Assembly: GCA_902791475.1 (NCBI GenBank)
Contig: CADAWC010000001.1
Span: forward strand, 62,001-126,000
DNA length: 64,000 nucleotides
From: Fibrobacter succinogenes
GTDB lineage: Bacteria > Fibrobacterota > Fibrobacteria > Fibrobacterales > Fibrobacteraceae
Reading direction: 5' to 3'
Shown: positions 35,258-50,664 of the stretch, piece after piece
Position numbering within the stretch: position 1 is the first letter of the stretch
How the letters are laid out: each line of letters opens with the position of its first letter
Notes under the pieces: model-generated
Seen by the model: only the letters and a program-made list of their open reading frames with translations
What the model was told of the DNA's origin: nothing
The model's database searches: none
Translations under genes and position numbers: made by a program

Positions 35258-35345
35258 TTTGTGCCTGCAATTAAAAAATCAAAATAATTTGCGATTTTAT
35301 TCTGCAATTAAATTTATCTTTTTTAATGTAATTGGGAACACGATA

Positions 35346-35852
35346 GTGGATAAAGTTTCAAAAAAATCGAGTGCCAAGAAAAGGGTGGCTAAAAGGCGCA
35401 GGGCTCGCAAGCCGATGACCCGCTCGCAGATGATGCAGGCGGTCCATTCGGAGGATACAAAGCCCGAGATGATTGTGCGCAAGGCGCTTTTTGAGGCTGG
35501 GTTCCGCTATCGGCTTCACCGTCGGGATTTGCCGGGGACGCCGGATATTTTCGTACAAAGGTATGGGGTCGCGATTTTTGTGAACGGGTGTTTCTGGCAC
35601 CAGCACGGTTGCAAGCTCACGAGCCGTCCGAAGTCGAATTCTGCATTTTGGAACGACAAGTTCGACCGCAACATTGTGCGCGACATTAAAACGCAGCATG
35701 AACTTTCGCTCTTGGGGTATCGCGTGGCGATTGTCTGGGAGTGCTCCTTGCGTGTAGAAGGTGTTGCCGATGCGGGGAATATGGGGGCCGCCCTCACGTT
35801 GGAGCGCTTAATTGATTTTATCAAGAGCGATGACGAGACAATTGAGCTATAA
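35346..35852 (+). CDS. vsr: Very short patch repair-type endonuclease (Vsr), orphan
   Basis: A 168-residue Vsr family nuclease, which nicks next to T:G mismatches left by deamination of 5-methylcytosine. Motifs are MTRSQMMQAVHSEDTKPE, FRYRLHRRDLPGTPDIF, VNGCFWHQHGCK and YRVAIVWEC. I take GTG at 35346 as start, giving a Lys/Arg-rich leader (about 25 residues); ATG at 35418 is an alternative, and no strong ribosome site decides. No cytosine methyltransferase lies nearby, which is unusual because vsr is normally linked to one. An invasion-type nuclease for a methylase elsewhere remains possible. Confidence 0.87.
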   Translation: MDKVSKKSSAKKRVAKRRRARKPMTRSQMMQAVHSEDTKPEMIVRKALFEAGFRYRLHRRDLPGTPDIFVQRYGVAIFVNGCFWHQHGCKLTSRPKSNSAFWNDKFDRNIVRDIKTQHELSLLGYRVAIVWECSLRVEGVADAGNMGAALTLERLIDFIKSDDETIEL

Positions 35853-35903: not shown

Positions 35904-36614
35904 ATGACTATTGAAGAAGCGATTTTGGCACGCCATTCTGTGCGCAGGTACACTCCGACGCCTTTGACCAAGGAACAGGTCGAGGAATTGCAATCGCGGA
36001 TTAGGCTGTTGAATGAAAATTTTGCGCTCCACATGCAGCTTGTTCTAAATGATGATGTGGCGTTTAGCGGGCGCCTGGCGCATTACGGATCGTTTCGGAA
36101 TGTAACGAATTACATTGCTATAGCAGGGCAAAAGTCTGTGGCGGGGTGCGAAGCTTCACTTGATGAACGCGTGGGGTATGCGACGGCGGATATCGTGCTT
36201 TTGGCGCAGATGATTGGGCTCAATACTTGCGTGGTTGGGCTTACGTTCAAAAGAACACCGACGATTGAAATTGACGATGGCGAAAAGCTGGAGCTTGTGA
36301 TTGCGATTGGCAATGGCGAGACGCAGGGCGTGCAGCACCCGATGAAGCCTGTGACGCGAATTGCGCCGGGTTACGATCAATCTCCGGATTGGTTCAAGAA
36401 GGGAATTGACTGCGTGATGCTTGCACCGTCGGCTTTGAACCAGTTCAAGGCTAAATTTACCGTTGACGAGAGCGGTCGTGTTTTTGCGGAGAAGCGTTTG
36501 GGCTTTTTTAGCAAGGTCGATCTTGGAATTTTCAAGTATTTCTTTGAAATTGGCTCTGGCAAGGAAATTTTCCGCCGTTCCATGCAAACTTTGCGCAGTT
36601 CAGACACGATTTAG
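35904..36614 (+). CDS. Nitroreductase-family flavoprotein
   Basis: A 236-residue member of the FMN-dependent nitroreductase superfamily. N-terminal AILARHSVRRYTPTPLTKEQ is the FMN phosphate/ring-binding region; a second region VGYATADIVLLAQMIGLNTCVVGL is the conserved middle helix. The C-terminal DCVMLAPSALNQFKAKF with AEKRLGFFSKVDLGIFKYFFE matches the two-domain TM-nitroreductase variety. Substrate unknown. Strong AAGGAG ribosome site. A dispersed repeat follows. Confidence 0.85.
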   Translation: MTIEEAILARHSVRRYTPTPLTKEQVEELQSRIRLLNENFALHMQLVLNDDVAFSGRLAHYGSFRNVTNYIAIAGQKSVAGCEASLDERVGYATADIVLLAQMIGLNTCVVGLTFKRTPTIEIDDGEKLELVIAIGNGETQGVQHPMKPVTRIAPGYDQSPDWFKKGIDCVMLAPSALNQFKAKFTVDESGRVFAEKRLGFFSKVDLGIFKYFFEIGSGKEIFRRSMQTLRSSDTI

Positions 36615-36729: not shown

Positions 36730-36758
36730 TGGTAACACTTTTGAATACCTCCGGTGTT
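36730..36758 (+). promoter_or_regulatory. ECF-type promoter of the sigma/anti-sigma/caspase operon
   Basis: TGGTAACACTTTT, a 10-bp spacer, and GGTGTT. Near-identical sequences with the same spacer precede the receptor gene (40608) and the TonB2-type operon (44961). A -35-like part with AAC and a -10-like part suit an ECF sigma factor. It ends only 8 bp before the GTG start, so the transcript would be almost leaderless. Confidence 0.75.
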
Positions 36759-36766
36759 ACATAAAC

Positions 36767-37270
36767 GTGAAAAGCCTAGAACCCTTAAAAAAAGCAGGAT
36801 TTGCAAAGATTTACGAGAAGTACGCGCCTATGGTCTATAGGCGCTGCCTGCAACTCCTTCGCGATGACGCTGAAGCTTGCGATCTCATGCAAGACGTTTT
36901 TTTGCGGATTTACTCTGCATCGGAACGCCTGGATATGGAATCGCCGAGCAGCCTTTTGTGGAATACGGCAACGAGACTTTGCCTCAACCGCATTCGTGAC
37001 AAGCGCCGTCGTGGACTTGACGTAGATTCTTCTAGCCTGCTTTTGAGCATCGCCTGTGCCGAAGACGAGCATGACGATTACGAAACGAAAAATGTGCTGG
37101 CAAAGCTCTTTTCGAAAGAACCCGAATCTAGCCGCACAATGGCAGTCCTCCATTTTGTCGATGGAATGACGCTCGAAGAGACTGCCCGTGAAGTGGGGCT
37201 CTCGGTAAGCGGTGTGCGCAAACGTTTGCGCGGGTTACAGGCCAAAGTTAAAACTCTGGAGGTTCAGTGA
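36767..37270 (+). CDS. ECF-family RNA polymerase sigma factor
   Basis: A 167-residue ECF sigma factor. Region 2 is FAKIYEKYAPMVYRRCLQLLRDDAEACDLMQDVFLRIY, with region 4 as MAVLHFVDGMTLEETAREVGLSVSGVRKRLRGL. It starts at GTG, with only a few bases between the promoter -10-like box and the start. Its gene overlaps the anti-sigma gene (TGATG). The matching promoter copies at 36730, 40608 and 44961 make it likely that it directs its own operon and the two downstream ones. Confidence 0.9.
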   Translation: MKSLEPLKKAGFAKIYEKYAPMVYRRCLQLLRDDAEACDLMQDVFLRIYSASERLDMESPSSLLWNTATRLCLNRIRDKRRRGLDVDSSSLLLSIACAEDEHDDYETKNVLAKLFSKEPESSRTMAVLHFVDGMTLEETAREVGLSVSGVRKRLRGLQAKVKTLEVQ

Positions 37271-38106
37271 TGATTCCCGATTGGAAATTAGAACGATTCC
37301 TGACTGGCGACTTGCCGGAAGAAGAAATGAATAAGCTTCGCGAGCTTGAAGCGAATGATGCGATGTTTGCAAGTCGTGTCAAAATGCTCCGTGAAGATAA
37401 CAAGGCAATTTTAAACAAGTTGCCGTTTGAAACACTTGCCGCGAATCTTGGAACGGATGCTGCTGAGGAAGGTCGCGCAAATCTTGGAACGGGTGCCGCC
37501 GGGACTGCCGCGAAAAATGTTGTAAAAAATGCGGCGCGCTTTACGCTTGTGAAATTTGCGGCTGCGGCGATGTTCGTTTTTGCGGTTGCATTGGTGGCGT
37601 TCTTTGCCCAAAGCGAAACTTCCGTGATGAACGAACGCGTGGGTAGCGATGTCGCCTCTGTCAATGGCTCGCAAAATACGCAGGTTGCGCTTGCTGAAAA
37701 TGAATCCGATACGCGAATCAAGGGACTCGACGCCCGCATGGAAGTCTGGAAAAAGACTTCGGCCGGAATTGTCCAGCTGAACGATCTTGATTCTGTCGGC
37801 GAAGGTGATGAAATCCAGTTGCGCTATGCCGTCCCCGAGAAATGCTTTGGACTCCTTTTTAGCATGGATGGCAATGGCGCTCTGACTCTCCACATGGGCA
37901 ATGGCGTGAAGGCGATTGAACTTGCGCCTGGCAAGATGAATTCGCTCCCGTTTGCGTACAAGCTTGATGATGCTCCGTACTTTGAAAAGTTCTTCTTTGT
38001 AACATCTCCCAAGGAATTTGCGGTTGAAGAAAATGATGTCGATAAGTTGCTTAAGAGAAGTGATGTGAAGGTGATTGGTTTTACTCTCAAGAAGGTGGGT
38101 AAATAA
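37270..38106 (+). CDS. Single-helix anti-sigma-like protein
   Basis: A 278-residue membrane protein. The N-terminal cytoplasmic part begins IPDWKLERFLTGDLPEEEMNKL, resembling anti-sigma domains; no zinc HxxxCxxC motif is seen. One membrane helix lies at about residues 93-113 (AAAAMFVFAVALVAFFA). The outside part (about 145-278) includes FGLLFSMDGNGALTLHMG, a DUF4384-like pattern often linked to caspase-type proteins. It is placed between the sigma factor and the caspase, with one-base overlaps on both sides. Likely holds the sigma factor at the membrane until a periplasmic signal. Confidence 0.78.
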   Translation: MIPDWKLERFLTGDLPEEEMNKLRELEANDAMFASRVKMLREDNKAILNKLPFETLAANLGTDAAEEGRANLGTGAAGTAAKNVVKNAARFTLVKFAAAAMFVFAVALVAFFAQSETSVMNERVGSDVASVNGSQNTQVALAENESDTRIKGLDARMEVWKKTSAGIVQLNDLDSVGEGDEIQLRYAVPEKCFGLLFSMDGNGALTLHMGNGVKAIELAPGKMNSLPFAYKLDDAPYFEKFFFVTSPKEFAVEENDVDKLLKRSDVKVIGFTLKKVGK

Positions 38107-40424
38107 TGTTTATGATATCGAATAAGACTTTTGGGGTGTTGTCTGGTTTGTCTTTTGCATTGCTTTTTGTGTTGCTCTTGTTGGCTTCCAATGCCAATGC
38201 TGCAACAGAATCGGGCCGTATCAATCGCTATGTTGTGGCTGTGAGTGCCAATAACGGTGGTGCTGGCCGTCCGATGCTTCGCTATGCGGAAAGTGATGCC
38301 CGTTCGTTTGCCAAAGTGCTTAAGGAAATGGGTGGCGTGCTTCCGCAGAACGTGATTCTCGTGAAGGAACCGTCTGTTGTCGCCTTGCAAAAGGAATTTG
38401 CAAATCTCGATGCAAAAATTTTGCAGGATAAAGCGTCTAACGGCCGCGACGAAGTGCTCGTCTATTACAGTGGTCACGCCGACGAAAAGGGTCTCCGTTT
38501 GGGCGAAGAAACTTACGCCTGGAAAGACTTGCGCAATCGCATTGACGCCCTCAGTGCCGATGTGAAAATTGCAGTGATTGATGCTTGCGGTTCTGGTGCA
38601 ATTACCCGTGTGAAGGGCGGTAAGGCGGTGCCTGCTTTTATGGTCGACCAGAGCAGCGACATGAAGGGCTATGCGTTTATCACGAGCAGCACGCAAGATG
38701 AATCTAGCCAGGAAAGCGATAAGCTCAAGGGCTCGTTCTTTACGCACTCGCTTGTGAGCGGGCTCCGTGGCGCAGGCGACTTGAGTAGCGATGGCCGCGT
38801 GACGCTCTCGGAAGCGTACCAGTTTGCATTTAACGAAACGCTCCAGAAAACGGAAACAACGCTGGGTGGCGCTCAGCATCCGAGCCGCGACATGAATCTT
38901 GCGGGTACGGGTGACGTGGTGATGACCGATTTGCGTGCGACTGGCGCTGGACTTGATGTCGATGAAAATGTTTCTGGTCGCTTGTACATCCGCGATGCCG
39001 ATGGTGAACTCGTTGCAGAACTCAACAAAAAGCGCGGACGCGCCATGAGTCTGGGGCTCCCGCCGGGCAATTACACGGTGAATCTCCAGCACGATCTTGA
39101 TTACATGGGTGCAACTGTTGCGCTTGTGAACGGCAAGCGTGAAAAGATTACGGCTGAAAATTTCAAGAGTGTCATGACCGAACAGACTGTGTTGCGCGGT
39201 GAAATCGGTGGCAATAGAATGTGCTCCAGCGGAGATACGATTGCATGTTCGCTTGATTCCCTGGATCATCATGGTCGCTTCCGTACCACTTTTAATTTCG
39301 TGAATCGTGATAAGGAACCTCGTAAGGGATTGCAGTTGGGCTTGCTCACAACTCATGCTAACGATTATATGCTCGGTACGCAGGTAAGCTTGATCGCAAA
39401 TATCGCAAAAAAGGAAATGCATGGCTTGCAAGCGACGACGGTTATCAACGTGGCGAGAAAGCATTTTGAAGGTGTGCAGATTTCTAGTGCAGTAAACTAT
39501 GCTGGCTCATTTTCGGGTTCGCAGATTGGTATGGCAGTGAACTTTACTAAAGACAAGTCTTCTGGCGCTCAGATCGGTGTTGTAAACTTGGCGATAGACA
39601 CGCTTAAAGGATTCCAAGTTTCTGCTGGCGTGAACTATGCAAAGGCAACCAAGATGCAGATCACAGCTGGTGTGAATGCTGCGGAATCTTCGAATTTGCA
39701 AGTCGTTGCAGGTGTTAACGTTGCCAAAGAAACGGATGTCCAAGTTTCTGCAGGTGTCAATGCGGCTAAGAAGAGTGATATTCAGGTGGTTGCCGGTGTG
39801 AATGCCGCTCACGAGAACAACAAGCTCCAAGTCGGTGTTGTCAACTATGCGACAAAGGAATCTGGCCGTCAGTGGGGTATTGTTAACGTCTGTGCCCATT
39901 GCGAAAAGACTCCGGTCGGTATCATCAACATCGTCGGAAACGGCGTGTGGAGCGTGACCCCTTACATCAACGAAATGGGAGCGCTTGGCGGATCTGTCCA
40001 TTTGGGTACGGCTTATTTCTACACGAATATTGAATGGGCCGCATTCTTTAAGAAAGGGCATATCTTTAAGGAGTTCGAAAAGTTCTATGAACACGGTGTT
40101 GGTATCGGTACCCAGTTTGGAAAGTACGGAAGCCACTTTGAATTAGAATACACGTTCTTTAACGTTTATGACAAATTTGACTTTGACGAACGAGACGATT
40201 TCAAGACAGGATTCCACCATCGCGGAAGAGTGGGCTATGTGTATCAGTTGTTCCCGTTCTTTGGCCTTTCAGTCGGCGCGACGCTGAACTTGACGAGCGA
40301 AGGCTATTTGAATAAGCTGTTGCTCAAACCGCTTGGCGATTATCACGATGACGTGAGCTACAAAGACCATAAAGGTCGCTGGTGGCCGGGATTCTACGCA
40401 GGCCTTACCATCGGACGATTCTAA
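38106..40424 (+). CDS. Exported caspase-like peptidase with beta repeats and a C-terminal barrel-like domain
   Basis: A 772-residue protein. Signal peptide (about 10-32, ending ANA-AT). The caspase/C14 domain (about 40-270) has the dyad His in VYYSGHAD (H124) and Cys in VIDACGSG (C161). A CarboxypepD-like or PEGA-like part follows (about 290-360). Residues about 440-592 are tandem 14-16-residue units with consensus xQVxAGVNxAx, as in surface beta helices or barrels. The last 170 residues, alternating hydrophobic and ending TIGRF, look like an outer-membrane barrel strand end. A caspase outside the cytoplasm, under an ECF operon, is unusual. Confidence 0.8.
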   Translation: MFMISNKTFGVLSGLSFALLFVLLLLASNANAATESGRINRYVVAVSANNGGAGRPMLRYAESDARSFAKVLKEMGGVLPQNVILVKEPSVVALQKEFANLDAKILQDKASNGRDEVLVYYSGHADEKGLRLGEETYAWKDLRNRIDALSADVKIAVIDACGSGAITRVKGGKAVPAFMVDQSSDMKGYAFITSSTQDESSQESDKLKGSFFTHSLVSGLRGAGDLSSDGRVTLSEAYQFAFNETLQKTETTLGGAQHPSRDMNLAGTGDVVMTDLRATGAGLDVDENVSGRLYIRDADGELVAELNKKRGRAMSLGLPPGNYTVNLQHDLDYMGATVALVNGKREKITAENFKSVMTEQTVLRGEIGGNRMCSSGDTIACSLDSLDHHGRFRTTFNFVNRDKEPRKGLQLGLLTTHANDYMLGTQVSLIANIAKKEMHGLQATTVINVARKHFEGVQISSAVNYAGSFSGSQIGMAVNFTKDKSSGAQIGVVNLAIDTLKGFQVSAGVNYAKATKMQITAGVNAAESSNLQVVAGVNVAKETDVQVSAGVNAAKKSDIQVVAGVNAAHENNKLQVGVVNYATKESGRQWGIVNVCAHCEKTPVGIINIVGNGVWSVTPYINEMGALGGSVHLGTAYFYTNIEWAAFFKKGHIFKEFEKFYEHGVGIGTQFGKYGSHFELEYTFFNVYDKFDFDERDDFKTGFHHRGRVGYVYQLFPFFGLSVGATLNLTSEGYLNKLLLKPLGDYHDDVSYKDHKGRWWPGFYAGLTIGRF

Positions 40425-40607: not shown

Positions 40608-40636
40608 TGGTAACACTTTTTGTACCTTGAGGTGTT
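40608..40636 (+). promoter_or_regulatory. ECF-type promoter of the receptor-lipoprotein unit
   Basis: TGGTAACACTTTT, 10 bp, GGTGTT: the same boxes and spacer as at 36730. The likely start codon follows 28 bp downstream, leaving a short leader with an AGGA site. Confidence 0.75.
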
Positions 40637-40664: not shown

Positions 40665-43121
40665 ATGAATTTTATGTTGAAAATTGTTGTTTTTGTGTCG
40701 ATGATGGTTGCGTTTGCCGCAGCCCACGAAAGTATTATCTTCAATGGAATTGTTCAGGATGACTCGTTTGAAGCTCACGAAAAGCTGAATGTCGAAATTC
40801 TTGAAACGGGCGAGGCTTTGCAGACGACCGTGGGGACGCCTTTTAGCGTCGTTCTCCCTGCCGATACGCTTTGGAACATTTGCGTGACGAACTCGGATAC
40901 TTCTGGTGCCGAAAAGGAAAAATGTTATGAACTCCTGTATTTCGGTAACGATAGCTCATTCAGCAAAACGCTTGGCCCCGACGCCGTCACTATTGAAGAT
41001 TCTATTTCGAACGGTCGTGTTGAAGCGCAAGCGGAGTCGAAGGAGCCTGTAGACTCTGCCGAAGGCGCGGCAATCTCCGATAGCACATCTGATGTCGATG
41101 TTGAAAAGCTTCTCGCTTCGGGTGGTACAAATTCCAAAGTGACCGAGCTCAAAAAAGTCGTGGTGCAGTTGCGCCGCCGCCCCAAACGCAAGCCGGGTGA
41201 ATCTGTCGTTTCCGCAAAGTCCATCAAGCGCATGCCGGGACTTGCCGAAGCCGATGTCATTAAGAGCATCCAGGCACTCCCAGGCGTTGTTGCCAGTTCT
41301 GATTTCAGTTCCAAGATTTACGTGCGCGGTGGCGCTGCCGACCAGAATTTGTTCTTGTTCGATAATGCGGTCGTCTATTCTCCGGTGCATTTCTTTGGAC
41401 TTTTCAGCACGTTCCTTGTCGAAGGTATTGACGATGTGCAGTTCTACAAGAGCGGATTCCCGGCGCAGTATGGCAACCGCTTGAGTTCTGTGCTCAAGAT
41501 GGATGGTCGTGCGGGCGGTCAGGATTCTGTAGATGAATGGCTTAGCAAGTCAAGCATCAAGATAAGCACTTTTGCAGCCCAGCTCCATACAGAAGGCCAT
41601 CAAGGTCCAGCTCGTTGGGTGCTTGCAGGCCGTACAACTTACATTGGCTACATTCTCGATTTGTGTAATGCCATTGGCCTCTTGGATTTGGATCTGGATT
41701 ATGAATTCACGGACTTGCAGGGAACGTTTATGTACAACTTCTCTGAAGATACTCGTTTGAAACTCAGTTTCTATATGGGTAAGGACCGCTTGGAATTTGA
41801 CCCGCTTTATATGGACTGGGGTAACATCGCTATTCCGCTTGGTATTTACCACCGCATCAATGGCAACTGGGATTACAATGCAACGCTTGCCTATAGCAAA
41901 TTCTACCAGACGATGAAGGTGAGCGATCTCATGTCGATTGAAATGCTGCTTTATACCTTTGCGGGTAAACAGTGGCTGAACTATCGCGGTATCGACAATC
42001 ATACGTTTACTTTGGGTTATGAACTTGAATACGATTACGAACGCTATCAAGAAAAAATGGCTTCAATTAGCGTTGCTGATATTGAAAATGCGTTCCATCA
42101 CGTCGCCTATGTGCAGGATGCCTGGAAAATTTCGCCAGATTTGCTGTTGCAATATGGATTGCGTTTCAATTACCAGACGGCTTCAAAACATTTTGGTGTT
42201 GAACCGCGTGCCTCGTTGTCCATCAATCTTGATGAATCGAAATCGTTGGAACTTTACGGCGGTTATTACTTGCAGTACATGAATTCAATTGTCTATACCG
42301 ATCAGGAAACACTCAACGAATTCTATTACCCGGCGACGACAACAACGGATGGAAAACACATCAAACCCGCTTCCTCTTGGCTAATGGCAGCGGAGTACAG
42401 CCACCGCGACCTCTTTGAAGGTTATGATTTTACCGCAGGCGTTTATTATAAAACGCAAAATAACTTGAATACGTTTGCGATGAAAAAGGATACTAGCGAT
42501 AATTCGTCGTCTTCTGAAGAGCTTGTGCTTGCGGATAATTTTGGTACGGCAGATGGTTATTCATTCGGTTATGAGCTTTCGTTGCGTAAAAATAATGGTT
42601 GGTGGTTTGGTGGAATCAACTGGAGCCAAAGTATTAGCGTAGCTCGCGCGAATGATGGCTCTAAGCCGTATTTCCCGAGTTGGCATCAGCCGTATGCTTT
42701 AAAGTTGGATTTGGGCATTAACTGGAAAGGTGGTGACGATGCCTTGTGGCGTCACAAGAAAAAAGGCCGCTATTTCCGTTCGTCACTTGCGCTCAAGTAT
42801 TCATCGGGAATGCCGATTAGTGAGTACAAAGGATATTACCTGCAACAGGAAATCGGGACGCAAAGGTATTCTGACGATATCGTAGTACTCCCGGGAAGCC
42901 GCAATGCGGGCCGCCAAACAGACTACTTTAGAATTGACTTGAAGGCGGTTGATATGGGTCGCGAAGGCAAATGGAACTTTAGCTGGACAATTATCAACTT
43001 AACGAATCACGACAACATGTTCTTTACGTTCTACGATACGCGCAAGAATCCTCCGAAGAAAACAGAAATTACTCAGTTCCCCTTTTTACCGATTATGCTG
43101 AATTATGAATACTACTTTTAG
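40665..43121 (+). CDS. TonB-dependent receptor
   Basis: An 818-residue outer-membrane receptor. Signal peptide 1-21 (ending AAA-HE). An N-terminal beta domain (about 25-100) and an acidic linker lead to a TonB-box-like region and plug (about 183-290: SIKRMPGLAEADVIKSIQALPGV, KIYVRGGAADQNLFLFDNAVVY). The remaining residues form the barrel, rich in alternating aromatic residues and ending NYEYYF. No STN signalling domain is apparent, so it is not a FecA-type transducer. ATG 40665 is chosen because the frame upstream runs into the ECF promoter. Likely imports a scarce ligand with the lipoprotein of the next gene. Confidence 0.9.
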   Translation: MNFMLKIVVFVSMMVAFAAAHESIIFNGIVQDDSFEAHEKLNVEILETGEALQTTVGTPFSVVLPADTLWNICVTNSDTSGAEKEKCYELLYFGNDSSFSKTLGPDAVTIEDSISNGRVEAQAESKEPVDSAEGAAISDSTSDVDVEKLLASGGTNSKVTELKKVVVQLRRRPKRKPGESVVSAKSIKRMPGLAEADVIKSIQALPGVVASSDFSSKIYVRGGAADQNLFLFDNAVVYSPVHFFGLFSTFLVEGIDDVQFYKSGFPAQYGNRLSSVLKMDGRAGGQDSVDEWLSKSSIKISTFAAQLHTEGHQGPARWVLAGRTTYIGYILDLCNAIGLLDLDLDYEFTDLQGTFMYNFSEDTRLKLSFYMGKDRLEFDPLYMDWGNIAIPLGIYHRINGNWDYNATLAYSKFYQTMKVSDLMSIEMLLYTFAGKQWLNYRGIDNHTFTLGYELEYDYERYQEKMASISVADIENAFHHVAYVQDAWKISPDLLLQYGLRFNYQTASKHFGVEPRASLSINLDESKSLELYGGYYLQYMNSIVYTDQETLNEFYYPATTTTDGKHIKPASSWLMAAEYSHRDLFEGYDFTAGVYYKTQNNLNTFAMKKDTSDNSSSSEELVLADNFGTADGYSFGYELSLRKNNGWWFGGINWSQSISVARANDGSKPYFPSWHQPYALKLDLGINWKGGDDALWRHKKKGRYFRSSLALKYSSGMPISEYKGYYLQQEIGTQRYSDDIVVLPGSRNAGRQTDYFRIDLKAVDMGREGKWNFSWTIINLTNHDNMFFTFYDTRKNPPKKTEITQFPFLPIMLNYEYYF

Positions 43122-43164: not shown

Positions 43165-44937
43165 ATGAATGTTTTTTTTGAATGTAAGAATGTAGGCGTC
43201 ATTGCGAGTCACGGTAGTGGCGAAGCAATCTATAATGTTTTTTGTAGGCGATTCCTTTCCTCTCTCGTCTGGATTCTCTCGTCTGTTTATTTTGTGGCTT
43301 GCGATTTTCATGGCCCATGGGAATACTATCCCGAAGAGCGTGAAGTCTATACGGGCATTTATACGTACGGATACATTCTTGAAGGTGGAGAAACCAAAAT
43401 TTGTTTCTCGAAAGTCTATGAACTTGATGAAGCTTCGTCTCAGGACTTCAGTTTCTATGATAGTGCCTATGTTACGGTTAGTGGCTTGTTTAATTACAAC
43501 CGCAAGGAAAATAGAGACGCCACGATAGAACTTTATCATCATGGACCGAACTGTTTCTCGCAAAGCAGTTATGAAGGAATTGCTGGCGAATCCTATACGA
43601 TGAACGCTTATTTTGTGTGGGATAGCGCTGGACAAACGGTGGCTTCAACCTATAAGGCCGTGGCTACGGTTCCGAATAGAATTAAAGTAAATGGCATGAG
43701 TGCTCCCCAACAGGATGGAAGCTACAAGTGGATTGAAAATCCATGGAACGATGCGTCAAGGCGTTTTTATCCCATTGATGATTTTACGATCGATTTTTTG
43801 GAATATCCAATGGATATGCAATTTATAAAGGTGGCTTTGGATTACGATAATTCAGTACGTGGTGTTCTCTCCATTATGAATTATGATATCAATAATGGGG
43901 AATCGCAAAATACGACGATGAACCAGATGTTTAAGGGGGTGACTGATGCTGATGAAACAGGTTATCGCGGAATTTCTATGCATGACCCGTTGGAAAAACA
44001 ACAAAACCTCGGTTTTTCGTCAAATCGCACTATTGCTGGAGTCAAGAATCTTGACACTCTTTACCTGATGAATATGATGCTTCCGTTGGGAAAAATCACG
44101 GTAGACTTTTATTCGACGGATGATGCGTATGTTGATTATGTGGATAAGGTAAAACAATCTGTGCAGGATTCGCGCGTTATCCCGGAATCGAATGTTGAAA
44201 ATGGAATGGGCGTGTTTAGCGGAATGGCTAAAACTCAGATAAGTATTATGGTCAATGGTGATGGTGTTGGCTTTTATCATATCGCAAATCGCAACTGTGC
44301 CAATGAAAAAGGGGACAATACAGAAAGTTGGGACTCTCGTGGGTGTAGACTTTATCAGGACGTGATTTGTTCTGGTGGAGTAAGCGAATTGATGCTTGAT
44401 GGTTGGCTTGAAACGGATTTGATTGATGCTAACGAGCGTGCTGCTGAAATTTACAGGGATTCGGTCTACAATAGAGGTGAAAAAGGTTGCTATGCGTCTA
44501 ATGTCAAGGCGGCGATGACGCTGGATACTACAAAATGGTCTCTCTTCTTGCCCGATACGATTAATGCCGAAGATAAGGCTAATGCGTATGCCGATGGCTT
44601 AAAACGTTATTGTGTCGCAAGTAATTTCGAAAGCAATCACATTGCAGATTGTTCCGGCTTGGAAAAAGAATGCATGGAAGACCCTGAAAGAAATAATTGC
44701 AAGGAATATCTATGGCTCTGGTGCGCGGATCGTGGCTGGGATTTTTATAGATACGATCAATGCCGTTCCGCTTTTGTGAGTCGCTACTACCTTCAAAATC
44801 TTAAATCTAGTGTTCTTCATCGTGAAGTGGAATATGAATGTCGTTATTGGTTGAACTATAGAGATGACGTTGTTTTCCGTAATCGTATGTGCGGAAATTG
44901 GTGCAAAGTCGAGGACAATCAAGTGAAATGTCAATAA
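43165..44937 (+). CDS. Large lipoprotein paired with the TonB receptor (DUF4249-like)
   Basis: A 590-residue protein. A lipobox-like VYFVACD (Cys47) follows a hydrophobic stretch, but the first 25 residues are a translated dispersed repeat (GVIASHGSGEAI). The mature domain contains ETKICFSKVYEL, an early beta domain, and VENGMGVFSGMA, which resembles DUF4249 proteins that pair with TonB receptors in Bacteroidetes. The C-terminal 250 residues are Cys-rich. It starts 43 bp after the receptor stop, with AAGG six bases before ATG and no promoter between, so the two form one unit. Probably a surface ligand-binding partner; assignment by eye. Confidence 0.65.
   Translation: MNVFFECKNVGVIASHGSGEAIYNVFCRRFLSSLVWILSSVYFVACDFHGPWEYYPEEREVYTGIYTYGYILEGGETKICFSKVYELDEASSQDFSFYDSAYVTVSGLFNYNRKENRDATIELYHHGPNCFSQSSYEGIAGESYTMNAYFVWDSAGQTVASTYKAVATVPNRIKVNGMSAPQQDGSYKWIENPWNDASRRFYPIDDFTIDFLEYPMDMQFIKVALDYDNSVRGVLSIMNYDINNGESQNTTMNQMFKGVTDADETGYRGISMHDPLEKQQNLGFSSNRTIAGVKNLDTLYLMNMMLPLGKITVDFYSTDDAYVDYVDKVKQSVQDSRVIPESNVENGMGVFSGMAKTQISIMVNGDGVGFYHIANRNCANEKGDNTESWDSRGCRLYQDVICSGGVSELMLDGWLETDLIDANERAAEIYRDSVYNRGEKGCYASNVKAAMTLDTTKWSLFLPDTINAEDKANAYADGLKRYCVASNFESNHIADCSGLEKECMEDPERNNCKEYLWLWCADRGWDFYRYDQCRSAFVSRYYLQNLKSSVLHREVEYECRYWLNYRDDVVFRNRMCGNWCKVEDNQVKCQ
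43197..43232. repeat. Dispersed repeat inside the 5' coding region of the 43165 gene
   Basis: CGTCATTGCGAG followed by GGCGAAGCAATCTA lies in frame between start codon and signal peptide. Compare copies at 47507-47560 and 48309-48340 in spacers. Confidence 0.8.
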
Positions 44938-44960: not shown

Positions 44961-44989
44961 TGGTGACACTTTTGATTGGGTCAGGTGTT
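44961..44989 (+). promoter_or_regulatory. ECF-type promoter of the TonB2-type operon
   Basis: TGGTGACACTTTT, 10 bp, GGTGTT, the third copy of the shared promoter. The first gene of the operon starts 40 bp downstream. Confidence 0.72.
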
Positions 44990-45028: not shown

Positions 45029-45865
45029 ATGAAACGATTGAATATATTGCCTTTTGCGGTCCTTGTTTTCTCGCTTTCGGGCCTAGCTTTTGCAGACTAC
45101 GAGTCCGAAATTCGAGACTTGAAACTGCAGAAGGAAAAGCTGAATTCTGAAATTCAAAATTTGAATACTCGAATCGCGTCGACGGATTCGATGCTACGTG
45201 CAGATGTGTCCCACCGCCAGTTGCTTGAACAGCGCTACAAGGCGGATGTGGAACGCCGCAATTTGGAAATCGATAGCTTGAATGCAAAAATTCGCAAGGT
45301 GGCATCAAGCCTCCAGCAGGAGCGCAACAAGCAGGCTCGCGCAAAGAACAAAAGCGATAACGTGGCCGCAAAACGCCGTGCATTGCGCGGTGAACTTGCC
45401 AAAATCTGTAAACAGCTCGAAGTCCAAATTGCGCAGACGCTCCCGTGGGAACGCGACAAGCGCCTTGATCGTGCAAAATCCTTGACGCGTGAAATCGAAA
45501 GCGGCAATGTGGCCGAAGAAGAAGCATTTTCTCGCATGAAGTCGCTCGTGAATGAAGAAATCAAGTTTGGCGATGAAGTTTCTGTAGTCAACAGCCCGCT
45601 CACTCGCAAAAATGGCGAAATTGTGAATGCGACAATTCTCCGCATAGGGAACCAGTGGATGGTCTATGTCGATGAAAACGGTGCCTCTTACGGTCGCCTG
45701 GAACGTAAGCTGGAAAACGATAAGATTGTCTATAAATGGAACGAAGAATTGAATCTTGAGGAACGCGCTGCCGTGAAACTTGCCATTGACGTGAAACAGG
45801 CGAAAAAGCCTCCTCAGATTGTGAAATTGCCTGTAAGTTTGTCTGTTGTGGGAGGCGTGAGATGA
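45029..45865 (+). CDS. Periplasmic coiled-coil protein, DUF3450-like
   Basis: A 278-residue exported protein. Signal peptide 1-22 (ending AFA-DY). Residues 25-105 are a long coiled coil (EIRDLKLQKEKLNSEIQNL onward), and the C-terminal part is beta-rich with IVNATILRIGNQWMVYVDENG. The pattern and gene order match DUF3450 proteins that head TonB2-TtpC operons in vibrios. Its last bases overlap the next ATG (ATGA) with a strong GGAGG site, so the next gene was evidently coupled here. Probably assists TonB complex function in the periplasm. Confidence 0.75.
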   Translation: MKRLNILPFAVLVFSLSGLAFADYESEIRDLKLQKEKLNSEIQNLNTRIASTDSMLRADVSHRQLLEQRYKADVERRNLEIDSLNAKIRKVASSLQQERNKQARAKNKSDNVAAKRRALRGELAKICKQLEVQIAQTLPWERDKRLDRAKSLTREIESGNVAEEEAFSRMKSLVNEEIKFGDEVSVVNSPLTRKNGEIVNATILRIGNQWMVYVDENGASYGRLERKLENDKIVYKWNEELNLEERAAVKLAIDVKQAKKPPQIVKLPVSLSVVGGVR

Positions 45866-47502
45866 TTTTAGACGAAAGAACGGGCGCAGCCCTACAGACG
45901 AGAGACGAAAGAAATGGTGTCATCCTGAGCGGAGCACGTAGTGCGAAGTCGAAGGATCTAGTGAAGTTTTTTGCAATTGTCTTAATGCTCGCCTCTTCTG
46001 CTTTTGCATGGCCATGGTCGAGCGACAAGAAAAGCGCCGAAGATGAAGCTCGCATCAAGGATTCCTTGTTGCAAGTCGAAGTGCGCAATTTGCAGCGCGA
46101 AGTCGAAACGCTTACCCGCATCCGCATGCAAAAAGCCGATTCTCTTGAAAAGCTCGATGCCAAGCATTGGAGCAATCGCTATGCCGAATCGCAGTTGACC
46201 GAAGAACACCAGAACGTCACGCGCGAACTCGATGGCCGCTATTCCAAACTCTCGACAGATCTTGGCCGCGTCACCGAAGAAGTGATGGCGAACAAGAACG
46301 TCACTGAAGAAGCGGAAGAAAAGTCCAAGAGCGAAGAAATTGCATTCGACGCGCTCAATACGCAAGTGAAACTTTCGATTGAAAAGACGCTTGGCGATGT
46401 GGCTGGCGATTATCCGGTCGGGATGAACAAGCGCCTTTTGAACTTGAAACGCGCCAGTGCCGAAGCCGAAAAGAAAGTGCCGAATACAATTGCTGCGGTG
46501 CAGGGCTATATGGCAGATTTGCTCGCCCGTCACGAAGTCACTTACACGCAATTCTACGGCAATGAAGTTTCGCAGGTGGGCTCTCGCCCGGATGTGAACG
46601 TGAATCGTTTGCGCTTGGGAACGGTGTTCCTCGGCGAAGTTGCAAACGACAATGGCGATGTGCAGGCGCTATTGCGCTCTGGTGCTTTGCAGGGCAAGGT
46701 CTTTGAATGGAATGCAAATCTGCCCACGGAAATGGCGGCAAATATCAAGTCTGCCGTGAACCAGGCGGTCTCGGTGGCAAGTGCTGCAACGGATGCGCAG
46801 GCTACTATCGCGATTCCGTTGGATGTGCTGCAGAATAAGGCCATCAAAAATTCTATCACCGATGCAAAGGAACTCACTTGGACCGAAGAATTCAAATCGT
46901 TCTTCAAGAAGGGCGGTATCGTGATGTATCCGTTGATGCTCGTGGCGATCATAGCGCTCCTCCTATTCCTTGAACGTTTTGTGATGCTTTCTTACCGTGG
47001 TCATCTCGGCCGTCGCTTCACCAAAAAAATGGATGCGCTTGTTGCCGAGAAAAAGTATGAAGAAGCTGCCAATCTCTGCCTCAAGAAAGAAACAAGCCTT
47101 GCAATGGTGTTGTTTGCCGTGCTGAACAAGGTGAACGATACTCGCGAAAATGCGGAACGCTCCTTGCAAGAAGCTTTGCTCCGTGAACAGCCGAAACTTG
47201 AACGCCGCATGGGCCTTCTGGCTGCGATGGGAACGATCGCTCCGCTTCTGGGCTTGCTTGGTACGGTGACGGGTATCATCACGCTCTTTACCGTGATTAC
47301 TGAAGTCGGAACGAATGACGCTCGCGTGCTTGCGGGCGGTATTTCCGAAGCTCTTGTGACGACGGAAATGGGCTTGGTCATTGCAATCCCTGTGATGATT
47401 TTGCATGGGCTCCTGAGCGAAAAGATTGAAAAAATCACCAGCGAACTCTACGTGCAAAGCACTTCGCTTATGAATAAAGTCTTTGGAAAGGAAAGTAAGT
47501 AA
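45862..47502 (+). CDS. TtpC-like MotA/TolQ/ExbB protein with periplasmic coiled coil
   Basis: A 546-residue (from ATG) inner-membrane protein. After a signal-like segment (KFFAIVLMLASSAFAW) come about 230 residues of coiled coil and a periplasmic domain, then three membrane helices of an ExbB/TolQ domain (about 350-370, 450-475, 490-520) with LGLLGTVTGIITLF and ISEALVTTEMGL. This is the TtpC layout of TonB2 systems. Two starts are possible: ATG 45862 with a strong coupled site, or GTG 45961, which gives a clean signal peptide and whose AAGGA lies in an inserted dispersed repeat. See the finding on this repeat. Confidence 0.85.
   Translation: MILDERTGAALQTRDERNGVILSGARSAKSKDLVKFFAIVLMLASSAFAWPWSSDKKSAEDEARIKDSLLQVEVRNLQREVETLTRIRMQKADSLEKLDAKHWSNRYAESQLTEEHQNVTRELDGRYSKLSTDLGRVTEEVMANKNVTEEAEEKSKSEEIAFDALNTQVKLSIEKTLGDVAGDYPVGMNKRLLNLKRASAEAEKKVPNTIAAVQGYMADLLARHEVTYTQFYGNEVSQVGSRPDVNVNRLRLGTVFLGEVANDNGDVQALLRSGALQGKVFEWNANLPTEMAANIKSAVNQAVSVASAATDAQATIAIPLDVLQNKAIKNSITDAKELTWTEEFKSFFKKGGIVMYPLMLVAIIALLLFLERFVMLSYRGHLGRRFTKKMDALVAEKKYEEAANLCLKKETSLAMVLFAVLNKVNDTRENAERSLQEALLREQPKLERRMGLLAAMGTIAPLLGLLGTVTGIITLFTVITEVGTNDARVLAGGISEALVTTEMGLVIAIPVMILHGLLSEKIEKITSELYVQSTSLMNKVFGKESK
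45919..45963. repeat. Dispersed repeat inside the 5' region of the TtpC-like gene
   Basis: GTCATCCTGAGCGGAGCACG followed by a GAAGGATCTAGTG end. Translated in frame it gives VILSGARSAKSKD. Its end supplies an AAGGA and a GTG that could act as a new start. Confidence 0.8.
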
Positions 47503-47506
47503 AATA

Positions 47507-47560
47507 CGTCATTGCGAGCATGGCTACAACGTCATTGCGAGCCGAAGGCGAAGCAATCTA
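47507..47560. repeat. Two dispersed repeat copies between ttpC-like and exbB-like genes
   Basis: A partial copy (CGTCATTGCGAGCA) followed by a full CGTCATTGCGAGCC ... GGCGAAGCAATCTA. The exbB start lies 10 bp further and lacks a clear ribosome site. Confidence 0.8.
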
Positions 47561-47570
47561 ATCATGAATT

Positions 47571-48305
47571 ATGACTGATTTTCATTACATATTCATAGAA
47601 TCTCTGCGGAATACGTATGAGGCGGGTGGCGTGGTGATGCTACCCATCCTCTTGTCGGGCGTTGTTGGATTCTATTTCCTTTTCTCGAGTTGGTTTCGCA
47701 TCGGTAGCGATTTTTTCAGAAAGGATATCACTAAAGTCGTGAGGCGTATGCAGCGCGGTTTGACTGGCGAAAGAGCTGTTGCTGGAGCCGAATCTTACTC
47801 TGATGAACAACGTGTGCAGATGACTTTGACAAACCTTCGCAAACGCGGTGGATTTCTTTCAAGAGAACTTTCTTGCGCGATTGAAATTGCGCAAAAAAAT
47901 TATGACGAATTTCGCGATTACATGCAAGTACGCATGATGAAAAGTGTGCGCTACATGGAACAAGGAAACCACATTGTTTCTGTGATGGCTGCAGCCGCTC
48001 CGCTCTTGGGCCTGCTTGGAACGGTCACGGGAATGGTCTCGACTTTTGAGGTGATCACGTTGTATGGAAACCAGAACCCGGTGCTGATGGCGGATGGAAT
48101 TTCAGAAGCCTTGATTTCGACGCAGAGCGGGCTCTTGATTGCGTTCCCGCTGACGCTCTTAAAGCAACGTTTGGACGAACGCATTGAAATCTTGAAGCAG
48201 GAAATGGAACTTGGCGCAACGGTAATCGACAACTATTTTGTGTCTAAAGGTGAAACGGAGAAAAATAGCACGTCATTGCAAACTGAAGGCCGCGACTTAA
48301 CGTAG
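47571..48305 (+). CDS. exbB: ExbB-type proton channel protein
   Basis: A 244-residue ExbB/TolQ family protein with three membrane helices: about 20-40, 130-150 and 165-185 (AAPLLGLLGTVTGMVSTFEVIT, then SEALISTQSGLLIAFPLTLL). Together with ExbD it conducts protons to energise TonB. N-terminal MTDFHYIF is taken because other ATG codons are out of frame; there is no strong ribosome site after the repeat at 47560. The last residues (STSLQTEGRDLT) read through a decayed copy of the dispersed repeat. Confidence 0.9.
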   Translation: MTDFHYIFIESLRNTYEAGGVVMLPILLSGVVGFYFLFSSWFRIGSDFFRKDITKVVRRMQRGLTGERAVAGAESYSDEQRVQMTLTNLRKRGGFLSRELSCAIEIAQKNYDEFRDYMQVRMMKSVRYMEQGNHIVSVMAAAAPLLGLLGTVTGMVSTFEVITLYGNQNPVLMADGISEALISTQSGLLIAFPLTLLKQRLDERIEILKQEMELGATVIDNYFVSKGETEKNSTSLQTEGRDLT

Positions 48306-48308
48306 CTA

Positions 48309-48340
48309 CGTCATTGCGAGCCGTAGGCGAAGCAATCTAA
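48309..48340. repeat. Dispersed repeat between exbB and exbD
   Basis: CGTCATTGCGAGCCGTAGG then CGAAGCAATCTAA. The end AATCTAAAGGA joins the AAGGA site of exbD. Confidence 0.8.
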
Positions 48341-48350
48341 AGGATTTGTT

Positions 48351-48755
48351 ATGGAATTTAATTTACCGAGAAGAAAACAGAAAGACGTGGGCATTGAAAT
48401 GGGTCCGCTGATGGATATCGTGTTCATCTTGCTCATCTTTTTTGTGGTGACGTCGTCGTTCACTCGCGAAACGGGTGTGGATGTGACGAAACCGCAGGCG
48501 CAATCGGCGAGCCAACTTGAAAAAGAAAACTTGCTCATAGCCATCACGCGCGAAGGGACGATTCACATGAATGAACGCCAGGTGGATTTGGCGAGCCTGC
48601 AAGACATCTTGAAACAGTCTCTTGCGAAAGCGCCCGATCGCGAAGCCGTTGTAATTGCCGATAAAGAAGCCGAAACCGGCGTTCTCGTTCAGGTCATCGA
48701 TATGTGCAATTTGGCCGGCGTCAAAAAAGTCTCCATCGCCGCCCAAGCGGAGTAA
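48351..48755 (+). CDS. exbD: ExbD-type TonB accessory protein
   Basis: A 134-residue protein with one membrane helix (about residues 20-38), including Asp22 in PLMDIVFILLIFF, the conserved proton-path Asp of ExbD/TolR. The rest is a periplasmic domain (LLIAITREGTIHMNERQV). With ExbB it forms the proton channel driving TonB. Starts with AAGGA six bases upstream of ATG. Confidence 0.92.
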   Translation: MEFNLPRRKQKDVGIEMGPLMDIVFILLIFFVVTSSFTRETGVDVTKPQAQSASQLEKENLLIAITREGTIHMNERQVDLASLQDILKQSLAKAPDREAVVIADKEAETGVLVQVIDMCNLAGVKKVSIAAQAE

Positions 48756-48793
48756 ACATGATTGATGTGGAACGGGCTTTCAAAAAAGTAATT

Positions 48794-48836
48794 GCGTCAT
48801 TCTGAGGACCGTAGGGACGAAGAATCCAGTTAAGTC
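48794..48836. repeat. Dispersed repeat between exbD and tonB
   Basis: GCGTCATTCTGAGGACCG ... AGAATCCAGTTAAGTC. A copy of the TCCAGTTAAGTC end lies near 27850 as well. Confidence 0.75.
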
Positions 48837-48853
48837 TTGTATTTGAGTGAATA

Positions 48854-49501
48854 ATGCAAAAGTTTATAAAAAAGTTTTTAAAGCGTTTTTCAATCCTTCT
48901 CGCGGCGATTCTAGCGAGCATGCTTCTCGTATTCTCCGTGACGATGGCGAACTTGTTTTTGACGGGTAAAATCTTCCACGAAAAGAAATTCGTCAAGACC
49001 GAAGTCTCTGTGAAAAAAGTTGAAGAAGTTGAAAAGAAAATTGAGAAAAAACGCACCGCACGCAAGCCGAATCGTCAAAAGTCCAATTCGCGCTCACCCA
49101 AAGCGGGACCGCGTTTTGCCATGGCTCTTGGCGCCGTTTCAGGAACTGCGGGTGCTGCCATCAATAGCGAGCTCGTTGCCGATTTTCGAGGCGGCGCGCT
49201 CTCCACTGAAAAAGGCGATGTCGATAAAAAGCCCGAAAGCCGCTCTGTCGCAAACTTTCAGGTGCCGCCGCAAATCCGAGACCGCGAAATAGATGCCATG
49301 CTTCGTCTCAGTTTCTGTGTGGATGTTGGCGGTCGTGCGTATGATATCAAAGTCATCGAAGAATCTCCCGCAGGTTCAGGGCTTGCGCAAGCGGGGAAGG
49401 ATGCTATCGCCCGCATGACTTTTGCTCCCGCCGAAAAAGATGGCAAAGCCGTTGCTTTCTGCGGCATGGAACAACCCTTCGAAGTGAAGTTTAGAGATTG
49501 A
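48854..49501 (+). CDS. tonB: TonB-type protein
   Basis: A 215-residue energy transducer. Inner-membrane helix about residues 11-37, a Lys-rich segment (KKVEEVEKKIEKKRTARK), and a C-terminal TonB domain (about 135-215) with VPPQIRDREIDAMLRLSFCVDVGG and IARMTFAPA. It would touch the TonB box of receptors, the nearest being 40665-43121. The proline-rich spacer typical of classic TonB is short here, as in TonB2-type proteins. Ribosome site weak (GAG). Confidence 0.86.
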   Translation: MQKFIKKFLKRFSILLAAILASMLLVFSVTMANLFLTGKIFHEKKFVKTEVSVKKVEEVEKKIEKKRTARKPNRQKSNSRSPKAGPRFAMALGAVSGTAGAAINSELVADFRGGALSTEKGDVDKKPESRSVANFQVPPQIRDREIDAMLRLSFCVDVGGRAYDIKVIEESPAGSGLAQAGKDAIARMTFAPAEKDGKAVAFCGMEQPFEVKFRD

Positions 49502-49527
49502 TTGAGACAAAAGACGGATGAACAATA

Positions 49528-50664
49528 ATGGCGCTATGCGCAAAAGAGAACGTTATGTTTAATGAATGTGTAAATAGGTATTGTAGACAACGGGGGGATT
49601 CTTGTTTTGCGTCACTCTCGTCTCTCGTCTCTCGTCTTTCGTCTGTTTTACTCATTTCCCTTTTCCTCGCGCTTCCTGCATTTTCTGCCCAGTCCTCCTT
49701 TGACTTGATGGAACGCGCAAACGCCCTTTATCGCAGTGGAAAATTCAAACAAGCTATACTCTTGTATCGCAAGGCCGAAGACCGCGGCGCCGATCCCGTT
49801 GCCGTGAGTTTCAACATTGCCAATAGCTATTATCAAATGGACAAATATCCCGAGGCGGCCGCCGCCTACCGCAAGGCTGTGGACTATTCCGAAGGCAATT
49901 TTGCACCCGCACTTTTCAACATGGCGAGCGTCTACTTCCGCTTAAAACAATTCCCGGAATGCATAGCCGTTTATCACCGTGCGCTCAAACTCGATCCCGA
50001 TAACATTTCCGGCTGGCTTTACCTCGGTGAGGCTTACTCCAAAACCGGCGACAAAGTCGGAGCCCTCCGCGCTATCGAAAACGCTTACCGCCTCGACAAA
50101 AATGATGTCAGCATCGTCTACCAACTTTCCGAAGCGAATATTGCTCTGAACGACTTTGACCGCGCCGTCGCCGTCATTCGCGAAGGCTATACGCTCCATC
50201 CCGAAGAATCTGATTTCCTAGTCTACCTCGGTGACGTATACCGCCTGAACAAGAATTTCGAAGAAAGCGCCAACGCCTACCGCGAAGCCCTCAGCGTGAA
50301 AATTGACGATACTCAAATTATGTACAAACTTGCTGATGTCCTCGTCGAAGATAAAAAGCCCTACATTGCTATGGAAATCTTAAATAACATTTTGCAAATC
50401 AAACCCGATTTCTCTGATGCCGCCATCTTCATGGGAAACCTCGCATACGATGCAAAGTTCTATGATCGCGCCGAATATGCCTACGAGCTTGCCGCCAAAA
50501 ACGGGAATGCCGAAGCCGTCTTTGGTTTCAAGAATATGGCGTACGATGCCCACGCACAAAAGCGCACAGAAGAATCCGTTCGCCTGCTGAAACTCGCACT
50601 CAAATATTACCCGAACGACGCTTCCCTCATTGCAGACTTGCTCGAAATGCAGTCTGGAAACTGA
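49528..50664 (+). CDS. Exported TPR protein of the TonB2 operon
   Basis: A 378-residue protein with a signal-like hydrophobic stretch (about 38-54, ending AFSAQ) and about eight tetratricopeptide repeats (LYRSGKFKQAILLYRKAED, then YPEAAAAYRKAVDYSEG and others). In TonB2 systems of vibrios a TPR protein follows tonB in the same place. The start may be ATG 49528 or 49555; both precede a 7-bp tandem repeat (49616-49643) in the n-region of the signal. Probably periplasmic or inner-membrane-attached and stabilises the complex. Confidence 0.8.
   Translation: MALCAKENVMFNECVNRYCRQRGDSCFASLSSLVSRLSSVLLISLFLALPAFSAQSSFDLMERANALYRSGKFKQAILLYRKAEDRGADPVAVSFNIANSYYQMDKYPEAAAAYRKAVDYSEGNFAPALFNMASVYFRLKQFPECIAVYHRALKLDPDNISGWLYLGEAYSKTGDKVGALRAIENAYRLDKNDVSIVYQLSEANIALNDFDRAVAVIREGYTLHPEESDFLVYLGDVYRLNKNFEESANAYREALSVKIDDTQIMYKLADVLVEDKKPYIAMEILNNILQIKPDFSDAAIFMGNLAYDAKFYDRAEYAYELAAKNGNAEAVFGFKNMAYDAHAQKRTEESVRLLKLALKYYPNDASLIADLLEMQSGN
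49616..49643. repeat. 7-bp tandem repeat in the 5' coding region of the TPR gene
   Basis: Four head-to-tail units, three TCTCGTC and one TTTCGTC. The unit is not a multiple of three, so a change in copy number would shift the frame in the signal peptide. Related GACGAGA/GACGAAA units occur at 45871-45912, and scattered ones at 43263-43283. Confidence 0.85.

Follow-up and report, generated by a model that had tools for sequence, protein, structure and literature searches.

Why should a caspase-like peptidase bearing a signal peptide be encoded in one operon with a sigma factor and a single-pass membrane protein? The question is raised by a 64,000-nucleotide stretch of Fibrobacter succinogenes DNA (GenBank assembly GCA_902791475.1, contig CADAWC010000001.1, positions 62,001 to 126,000 of the forward strand), here termed the window, in which three overlapping genes follow one another:

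36767..37270, + strand: extracytoplasmic function (ECF) sigma factor, 167 aa (Sigma70_r2 4.8e-14, Sigma70_r4_2 7.4e-6; TIGR02937 2.9e-22)
37267..38106, + strand: putative membrane anti-sigma factor with a sigma-binding region (aa 1-50), a transmembrane (TM) segment (aa 94-112) and a DUF4384-like exported domain
38106..40424, + strand: exported caspase-like peptidase, 772 aa, with repeats and a probable C-terminal barrel; 1 bp overlap with the anti-sigma stop

We propose that the peptidase is the site-1 protease of the anti-sigma factor, and we give the whole chain of events, from an outer-membrane cue to the induction of uptake genes, about an even chance of being correct. The more specific proposition is advanced tentatively, as quite possible: an outer-membrane caspase would act as site-1 protease on an R-x-K-G sequence identical to its own self-processing sequence, and would be coupled to TonB-dependent uptake throughout the phylum.

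A conserved sigma/anti-sigma/caspase operon

The survey set consisted of 168 Fibrobacterota genomes, among which the window genome (3.86 Mb) has rumen Fibrobacter metagenome-assembled genomes as its relatives. Caspase homologues are present in 136 of the 168. By BLAST, 63 of 77 loci have the sigma, anti-sigma and caspase genes side by side; these loci partly repeat the same genomes and the homologous sequences are related, so that this and the further counts are not of independent events. In eight further loci the proteins are more diverged but the arrangement is kept: in six of them (L066-L071) the middle gene codes for a TM and DUF4384 protein, three of these with a match to zf-HC2, and at L075 and L076 a sigma factor is recognised by Pfam. 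The operon is conserved across Fibrobacterota. In the window the sigma and anti-sigma genes overlap by 4 bp and the anti-sigma and peptidase genes by 1 bp; across the 63 loci the overlaps recur (-4 bp in 56, -1 bp in 33), as is typical of translational coupling.

The three genes also vanish together: 12 genomes of the family lack the caspase, and in all of them the orthologous sigma and anti-sigma are likewise absent, leaving only paralogous sigma factors of about 22% identity. A match to the TonB-dependent receptor encoded downstream in the window persists in all 12 (partial or weak in G142, G143 and G146). Taken together, it is very probable that sigma, anti-sigma and caspase constitute a functional unit. 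Among the proposals of the initial annotation of this DNA, the link between the peptidase and the anti-sigma protein is thus the most strongly borne out, by the conserved overlapping operon and the joint absence. The receptor was considered as a further ancestral part of the module and rejected: it adjoins the caspase in part of the family only, while the three-gene core is constant, and the module recurs in other genera and families without a receptor alongside. A tblastn search of plasmids recovered no operon-type relative and nothing for the window caspase; the caspase of L070 retrieved distant caspases at 22-33% identity.

Several of the distant operons (L066, L068, L069, L070, L072) have a fourth co-directional gene directly after the caspase. 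Its product of about 250 aa has no Pfam match, and in L069 it begins with a lipoprotein-like N-terminus.

The window sigma factor possesses both regions 2 and 4 (Pfam, NCBIfam). Its partner has a single TM segment, which together with invariant motifs is seen over 57 homologues. The anti-sigma function of this middle protein would be consistent with a match to the NF052375 antisigma model (E 0.0013, below the cut-off) and with the zf-HC2 anti-sigma zinc finger in some of its distant relatives. The exported domain had been annotated as DUF4384-like. In the window protein itself PF14326 scores poorly (E 0.23, 12 bits against a gathering score of 27), and the assignment draws its strength from the relatives, with E-values of 1e-5 to 2e-4 and up to 25.7 bits (E 1.2e-5), likewise under the cut-off of 27; the domain is homologous to DUF4384 despite falling below the Pfam cut-off.

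An exported peptidase of the metacaspase type

The peptidase is composed, in order, of a signal peptide, a caspase domain, a short β-rich segment, a variable linker, the repeats and a C-terminal domain, and its N-terminal half has the following features:

38106..38201, + strand: predicted signal peptide, about aa 1-32 (sequence; hydrophobic N-terminus kept in homologues)
38226..38936, + strand: caspase (metacaspase-like) domain, aa 41-277 (Pfam C14; invariant residues; solved relatives)
38475-38477, + strand: H124 of the catalytic dyad
38586-38588, + strand: C161 of the catalytic dyad
38295-38297, + strand: D64, predicted S1 acid
38580-38582, + strand: D159, predicted S1 acid

Pfam Peptidase_C14 aligns with residues 54-227 (E 6.9e-11, 42.7 bits against a gathering score of 21.4). 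The full-length AlphaFold2 (AF2) model has a low confidence (predicted local distance difference test, pLDDT, 48) and was used for the fold match only; the caspase fold is clear all the same, as caspases came first in a foldseek search. The open reading frame (ORF) is related to, and not a member of, NF047832 (caspase, EACC1-associated; 55 bits against a cut-off of 140). A profile of 13 sequences finds metacaspases as the nearest solved relatives, namely AtMC4 (E 2.2e-7), yeast Mca1 and AtMC9. The signal peptide and His124/Cys161 dyad that the initial annotation had described both hold: nearly all homologues start with what looks by eye like a signal peptide, and H124 and C161, along with D64 and D159, are identical in 67 of 67, with no loss of the dyad.

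In the profile alignment to AtMC4 and Mca1, D64 and D159 are the equivalents of D95 and D211 of TbMCA2, which are important for the binding of basic residues at P1 (PMC6426788, PMC4357240). As both metacaspase S1 aspartates are invariant, the enzyme is predicted to be metacaspase-like with specificity for Arg or Lys.

A basic-glycine motif shared by the peptidase and the anti-sigma factor

Three sites that would suit such a specificity are present in the two proteins:

37714..37725, + strand: R150-I-K-G153, predicted cleavage motif between the TM segment and the DUF4384-like domain of the anti-sigma factor
38607..38618, + strand: R168-V-K-G171, loop after the catalytic Cys of the peptidase, possible self-processing site
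39195..39200, + strand: R364-G365, variable linker between the peptidase part and the repeats, possible release site

An RxKG lies within 70 aa after the TM segment in 61 of 63 anti-sigma proteins (52 of 53 in the BLAST set), as against a chance expectation of about 2% per protein estimated by shuffling. It is kept even as the linker from the TM segment to the DUF4384-like domain ranges from 6 to 63 residues, placing it where a site-1 cut would be predicted to fall. In the caspases the motif takes the form T-R-x-K-G-G, with the Lys nine residues past the catalytic Cys: at the R168-V-K-G171 position R is found in 65, K in 67 and G in 67 of 67 homologues, and all 67 have some RxKG. The linker site has R or K followed by G in 66 of 67 each. 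Elsewhere the motif is infrequent (sigma factor 0/54, receptor 2/34, DUF4249 3/13, ExbB 0/11, DUF3450 0/11). A peptidase with predicted Arg/Lys specificity and an anti-sigma factor with a basic-Gly motif are encoded in one operon; therefore, the anti-sigma factor is the predicted substrate.

A promoter-like element and the predicted regulon

Reading of the upstream DNA revealed an element, GGTRACACTTTT-N10-RGTGTT, before both the sigma gene and the receptor gene, with a layout resembling the -35/-10 pair of ECF promoters. Its copies in the window and the genes that follow them are:

36731..36758, + strand: predicted sigma promoter (autoregulation), GGTAACACTTTT-N10-GGTGTT; exact match, conserved upstream of sigma in relatives
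40609..40636, + strand: predicted promoter of the TonB-dependent receptor; exact motif
40665..43121, + strand: TonB-dependent receptor (Plug E 7e-7; ATG 40665 probably the true start, not TTG 40620)
43165..44937, + strand: DUF4249-like protein, receptor partner (weak Pfam match, E 7.2e-5, under the cut-off)
44962..44989, + strand: predicted promoter of the Ton motor operon; exact motif, GGTGACACTTTTGATTGGGTCAGGTGTT
45029..50664, + strand: DUF3450, two ExbB/TolQ, ExbD, TonB-like and TPR genes, predicted third target operon (Pfam)

These three (36731, 40609, 44962) are the only exact copies in the 3.86 Mb genome; with up to 2 mismatches the same genome has 5 matches against 4 for the reversed control. 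Across the 168 genomes there are 129 exact copies, counted from the listed places, against 0 for the reversed control, and in 12 genomes searched with up to 1 mismatch 38 sites against 1. The sites examined lie, with the exception of the unassigned L109, 15-84 bp before genes for the receptor, DUF3450, a DUF4249-like protein, a flavoprotein of the flavin mononucleotide (FMN)-reductase type, or the sigma/anti-sigma pair; the DUF4249-like gene has its own copy in G103. Within 3 mismatches the element precedes 25 of 26 receptors, and 11 of 12 receptors unlinked to a caspase (at least 10 kb away or on another contig) carry it. Five of the 8 caspase-less genomes checked are without it. The autoregulatory position, the conservation and this joint presence lead us to infer that the element is the promoter recognised by the window's sigma factor, and its regulon is likely to be as predicted: its own operon, the receptor, the Ton motor and the flavoproteins.

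Certain further observations concern these sites. Residue 16 of the longer ORF is where the receptor homologues start, which makes ATG 40665 the probable start; the ORF read from TTG 40620 reaches into the promoter predicted for it. In the sigma gene, the GTG start (36767) lies 9 nt past the predicted -10, which may mean another true start or a leaderless mRNA. Directly before FMN-reductase/flavodoxin-fold genes stand copies with 1 and 2 mismatches respectively (L085, G000 C28:34053; L086, G000 C12:23990), and several Fibrobacter genomes have equivalents, a hint that the regulon may also have a redox or metal aspect. A second receptor copy of 67% identity (G000 C46:16386-18851) has no element within 2 mismatches.

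The placement of the peptidase gene behind the predicted promoter at 36731 also accommodates a different role, in which the enzyme is an output of the regulon and not its trigger: it would process other envelope or extracellular proteins, for instance in maturation of the receptor or in the breakdown of dietary peptides that are then taken up, and the DUF4384-like domain would provide feedback by sensing either the peptidase or the cue. The genes under the same predicted control are indeed uptake genes, and caspase copies without a sigma factor exist. We nevertheless consider it rather unlikely: a peptidase directed at other proteins would not account for an RxKG confined to itself and the anti-sigma factor, for the joint loss of the three genes where receptors persist, or for the module's recurrence without a neighbouring receptor.

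Repeats and a probable outer-membrane barrel

The C-terminal half of the peptidase comprises two regions, whose structural assignment is tentative:

39330..39920, + strand: about ten LA_2272-type repeats of 14-16 aa, probably a β-solenoid (NF047436, spacing, AF2)
39921..40421, + strand: probable OmpA/OprF-like barrel domain with a terminal Phe (foldseek; C-terminal F in 51/67)

The initial annotation had counted about ten repeats, and a regular expression does find 10 units; their spacing is 14-16 residues and not the 11 given there. They belong to an already known family, the LA_2272 surface repeat (NF047436, 36.4 bits against a cut-off of 25), whereas the VC2662 family is below membership (NF047437, 38.2 bits against a cut-off of 140 for the 772-aa protein). 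As the number of units shifts by single 14-aa steps and the model has an unbroken run of strands, the repeats are more likely an elongated β-solenoid; that they are strands of the barrel was judged unlikely, as indels of a single unit would alter strand parity.

A separate AF2 model of residues 368-772, built with 8 close sequences, has a mean pLDDT of 63, with the repeats at 70-88 and the last 165 residues at about 40-65. In foldseek searches its C-terminal part matches mostly outer-membrane barrels (OprF, NspA, Ail, PagL, OmpA) over about 170 columns, with prob 1.00 for OprF, NspA and OmpA and, for the OprF N-domain, E 5.6e-4 and TMt 0.64; the viral library returned OmpA-like barrels together with long, low-probability β-helix matches. 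The final residue is Phe in 51 of 67 homologues. Homologues that are devoid of repeats (L066-L076) retain a β-rich C-terminal domain of 146-249 aa, and hhalign of close against distant C-terminal domains gave no match. The model thus suggests a repeat solenoid followed by a small OmpA-like barrel, and it is probable that the terminal domain resides in the outer membrane. The barrel-like C-terminus of the initial annotation, for which structure prediction had been suggested as the check, accordingly stands as "probable": the fold matches and the terminal Phe favour it, and the low confidence of the last 165 residues tempers it.

These same confidence values, and the absence of a sequence match to barrel families, would be explained if the region were a soluble β-rich surface domain, with the peptidase periplasmic or secreted. 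We regard this as unlikely, given that barrels dominate the foldseek matches in two libraries and that so many homologues end in Phe. Both termini of barrel proteins are usually in the periplasm. Of the surface or periplasmic position suggested earlier, the surface one is for this reason unsupported for the peptidase domain.

A proposed model for caspase-dependent sigma-factor release

In the mechanism we favour, the sigma factor would be held by the single-pass anti-sigma factor, whose DUF4384-like domain would extend into the periplasm, and the peptidase would be tied to the outer membrane by the barrel at its C-terminus, to which most members add a stalk of repeats. A putative cue at the outer membrane would activate the peptidase; this may involve self-cleavage, at R-x-K|G after the Cys or at [KR]|G in the linker. 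The activated enzyme is predicted to cut the anti-sigma factor at R-x-K|G between the membrane helix and the DUF4384-like domain, the site and direction of cleavage being likewise predictions, and general site-2 proteases would complete the degradation. The freed sigma factor would then transcribe its own operon, the genes for the TonB-dependent receptor and the DUF4249-type protein that partners it, the operon of the Ton motor and the genes for flavoproteins of the FMN-reductase type. Signalling through the anti-sigma factor, as surmised in the initial annotation, gains from the shared R-x-K-G, the metacaspase-type S1 residues and the coherent predicted regulon, with the cleavage itself as its conjectural part.

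Several points weigh against this mechanism. Caspase-repeat-barrel genes without sigma and anti-sigma genes upstream exist as orphans in genera g2/g4 (L052, L053), and L050 and L051 of these genera, for which about 1.2 kb of upstream sequence is at hand, are probably orphans too. Among caspase-less genomes, 2 have a receptor motif with 2 mismatches and one, 71% complete, has a motif with 1 mismatch. The most distant operons (L066-L072) are without this element upstream, and the promoter is assigned to the sigma factor only from its position and conservation. The C-terminal domain has no sequence-level match to known barrel families, and its model is of moderate confidence (pLDDT 63). Finally, the RxKG lies at the edge of a folded domain in the anti-sigma factor and in the active-site loop in the caspase, and may be structural in both.

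The signal might also be carried by conformational change and not by cleavage, through a stable complex of the caspase with the DUF4384-like domain, akin to FecA-FecR. The strong conservation of that domain would fit a binding surface, and a regulon consisting of a TonB-dependent system recalls Fec-type signalling. Binding alone, however, would not require the strict conservation of the dyad and both S1 acids, and Pfam scans of the anti-sigma factor and receptor reported no FecR or STN domain, making this quite improbable. A defence or programmed-death caspase with expression set by its sigma factor is exceedingly improbable and was rejected, even though many prokaryotic caspases are proposed as parts of conflict systems, some beside ECF sigma factors (PMC8195603), since the peptidase is exported, the regulon is one of uptake genes, PADLOC models gave no match (no family at E<=0.01), and nearly every member of the genus has the caspase and inherits it within a fixed operon.

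Relation to known systems

Anti-sigma factors are well known as targets of regulated proteolysis, with the site-1 cut usually made by a serine protease in the inner membrane. As in DegS-RseA-sigmaE, a single-pass anti-sigma factor would in the proposed mechanism be cut at site 1 in the periplasm; DegS, however, is a PDZ serine protease of the inner membrane, whereas the Fibrobacter enzyme would be an outer-membrane-linked cysteine peptidase of the caspase type encoded in the same operon, and RseA domains were not found in the Fibrobacter system. With FecI-FecR-FecA it has in common an ECF sigma factor and a membrane anti-sigma factor that are here predicted to control a TonB-dependent receptor; it differs in that Pfam listed no FecR domain in the anti-sigma factor (E<=1) and no STN in the receptor. 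A precedent is found in type III-E CRISPR, where the caspase-like Csx29 makes a cut in Csx30, which inhibits an ECF sigma factor (PMC10028731): in Csx29-Csx30-CASP-sigma a caspase-like (TPR-CHAT) peptidase relieves the inhibition by cleavage, as predicted for Fibrobacter, but that system is cytoplasmic, RNA-triggered and CRISPR-bound, has no membrane or barrel component, and employs another caspase branch. A review records CHAT-domain proteins near ECF54 sigma factors (PMC8999054).

The peptidase resembles metacaspases/orthocaspases (C14B) in fold, dyad and both S1 aspartates; it differs in being exported and in its C-terminus of repeats and a probable barrel. It resembles the LA_2272/VC2662 surface-repeat proteins (NF047436, NF047437), with repeats above the NF047436 cut-off, which are here fused to a caspase; VC2662 is uncharacterised (PMC10865864).

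The operon link of sigma factor and caspase has been known since 2012, Fibrobacter included: Asplund-Samuelsson et al. (2012, PMC3501461) list sigma-70/metacaspase operons in Myxococcus, Anaeromyxobacter, Haliangium, Sorangium, Ralstonia and Fibrobacter. The operon logic is the same, and the section of that account consulted deals with the sigma-caspase link only, without an anti-sigma/DUF4384 partner, barrel, regulon or mechanism. The literature searched, outside which many subscription papers lie, held no description of the outer-membrane anchor, the anti-sigma motif, the regulon or the anti-sigma/caspase pair; the anatomy, the regulon and the cleavage prediction appear to be new. If correct, the mechanism would give prokaryotic caspases a signalling role apart from death, and one for which the substrate site and the regulon are explicitly predicted. 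The operon link described in 2012 for Fibrobacter and myxobacteria would become a mechanism open to direct testing, and a rumen cellulose degrader would acquire a named control circuit for TonB-dependent uptake.

Neighbouring genes

Elsewhere in the window, positions 35154-35852 encode, judged by eye, a Vsr-like very-short-patch-repair endonuclease, which is adjoined by a gene for a TM1586-type nitroreductase (35904-36614).

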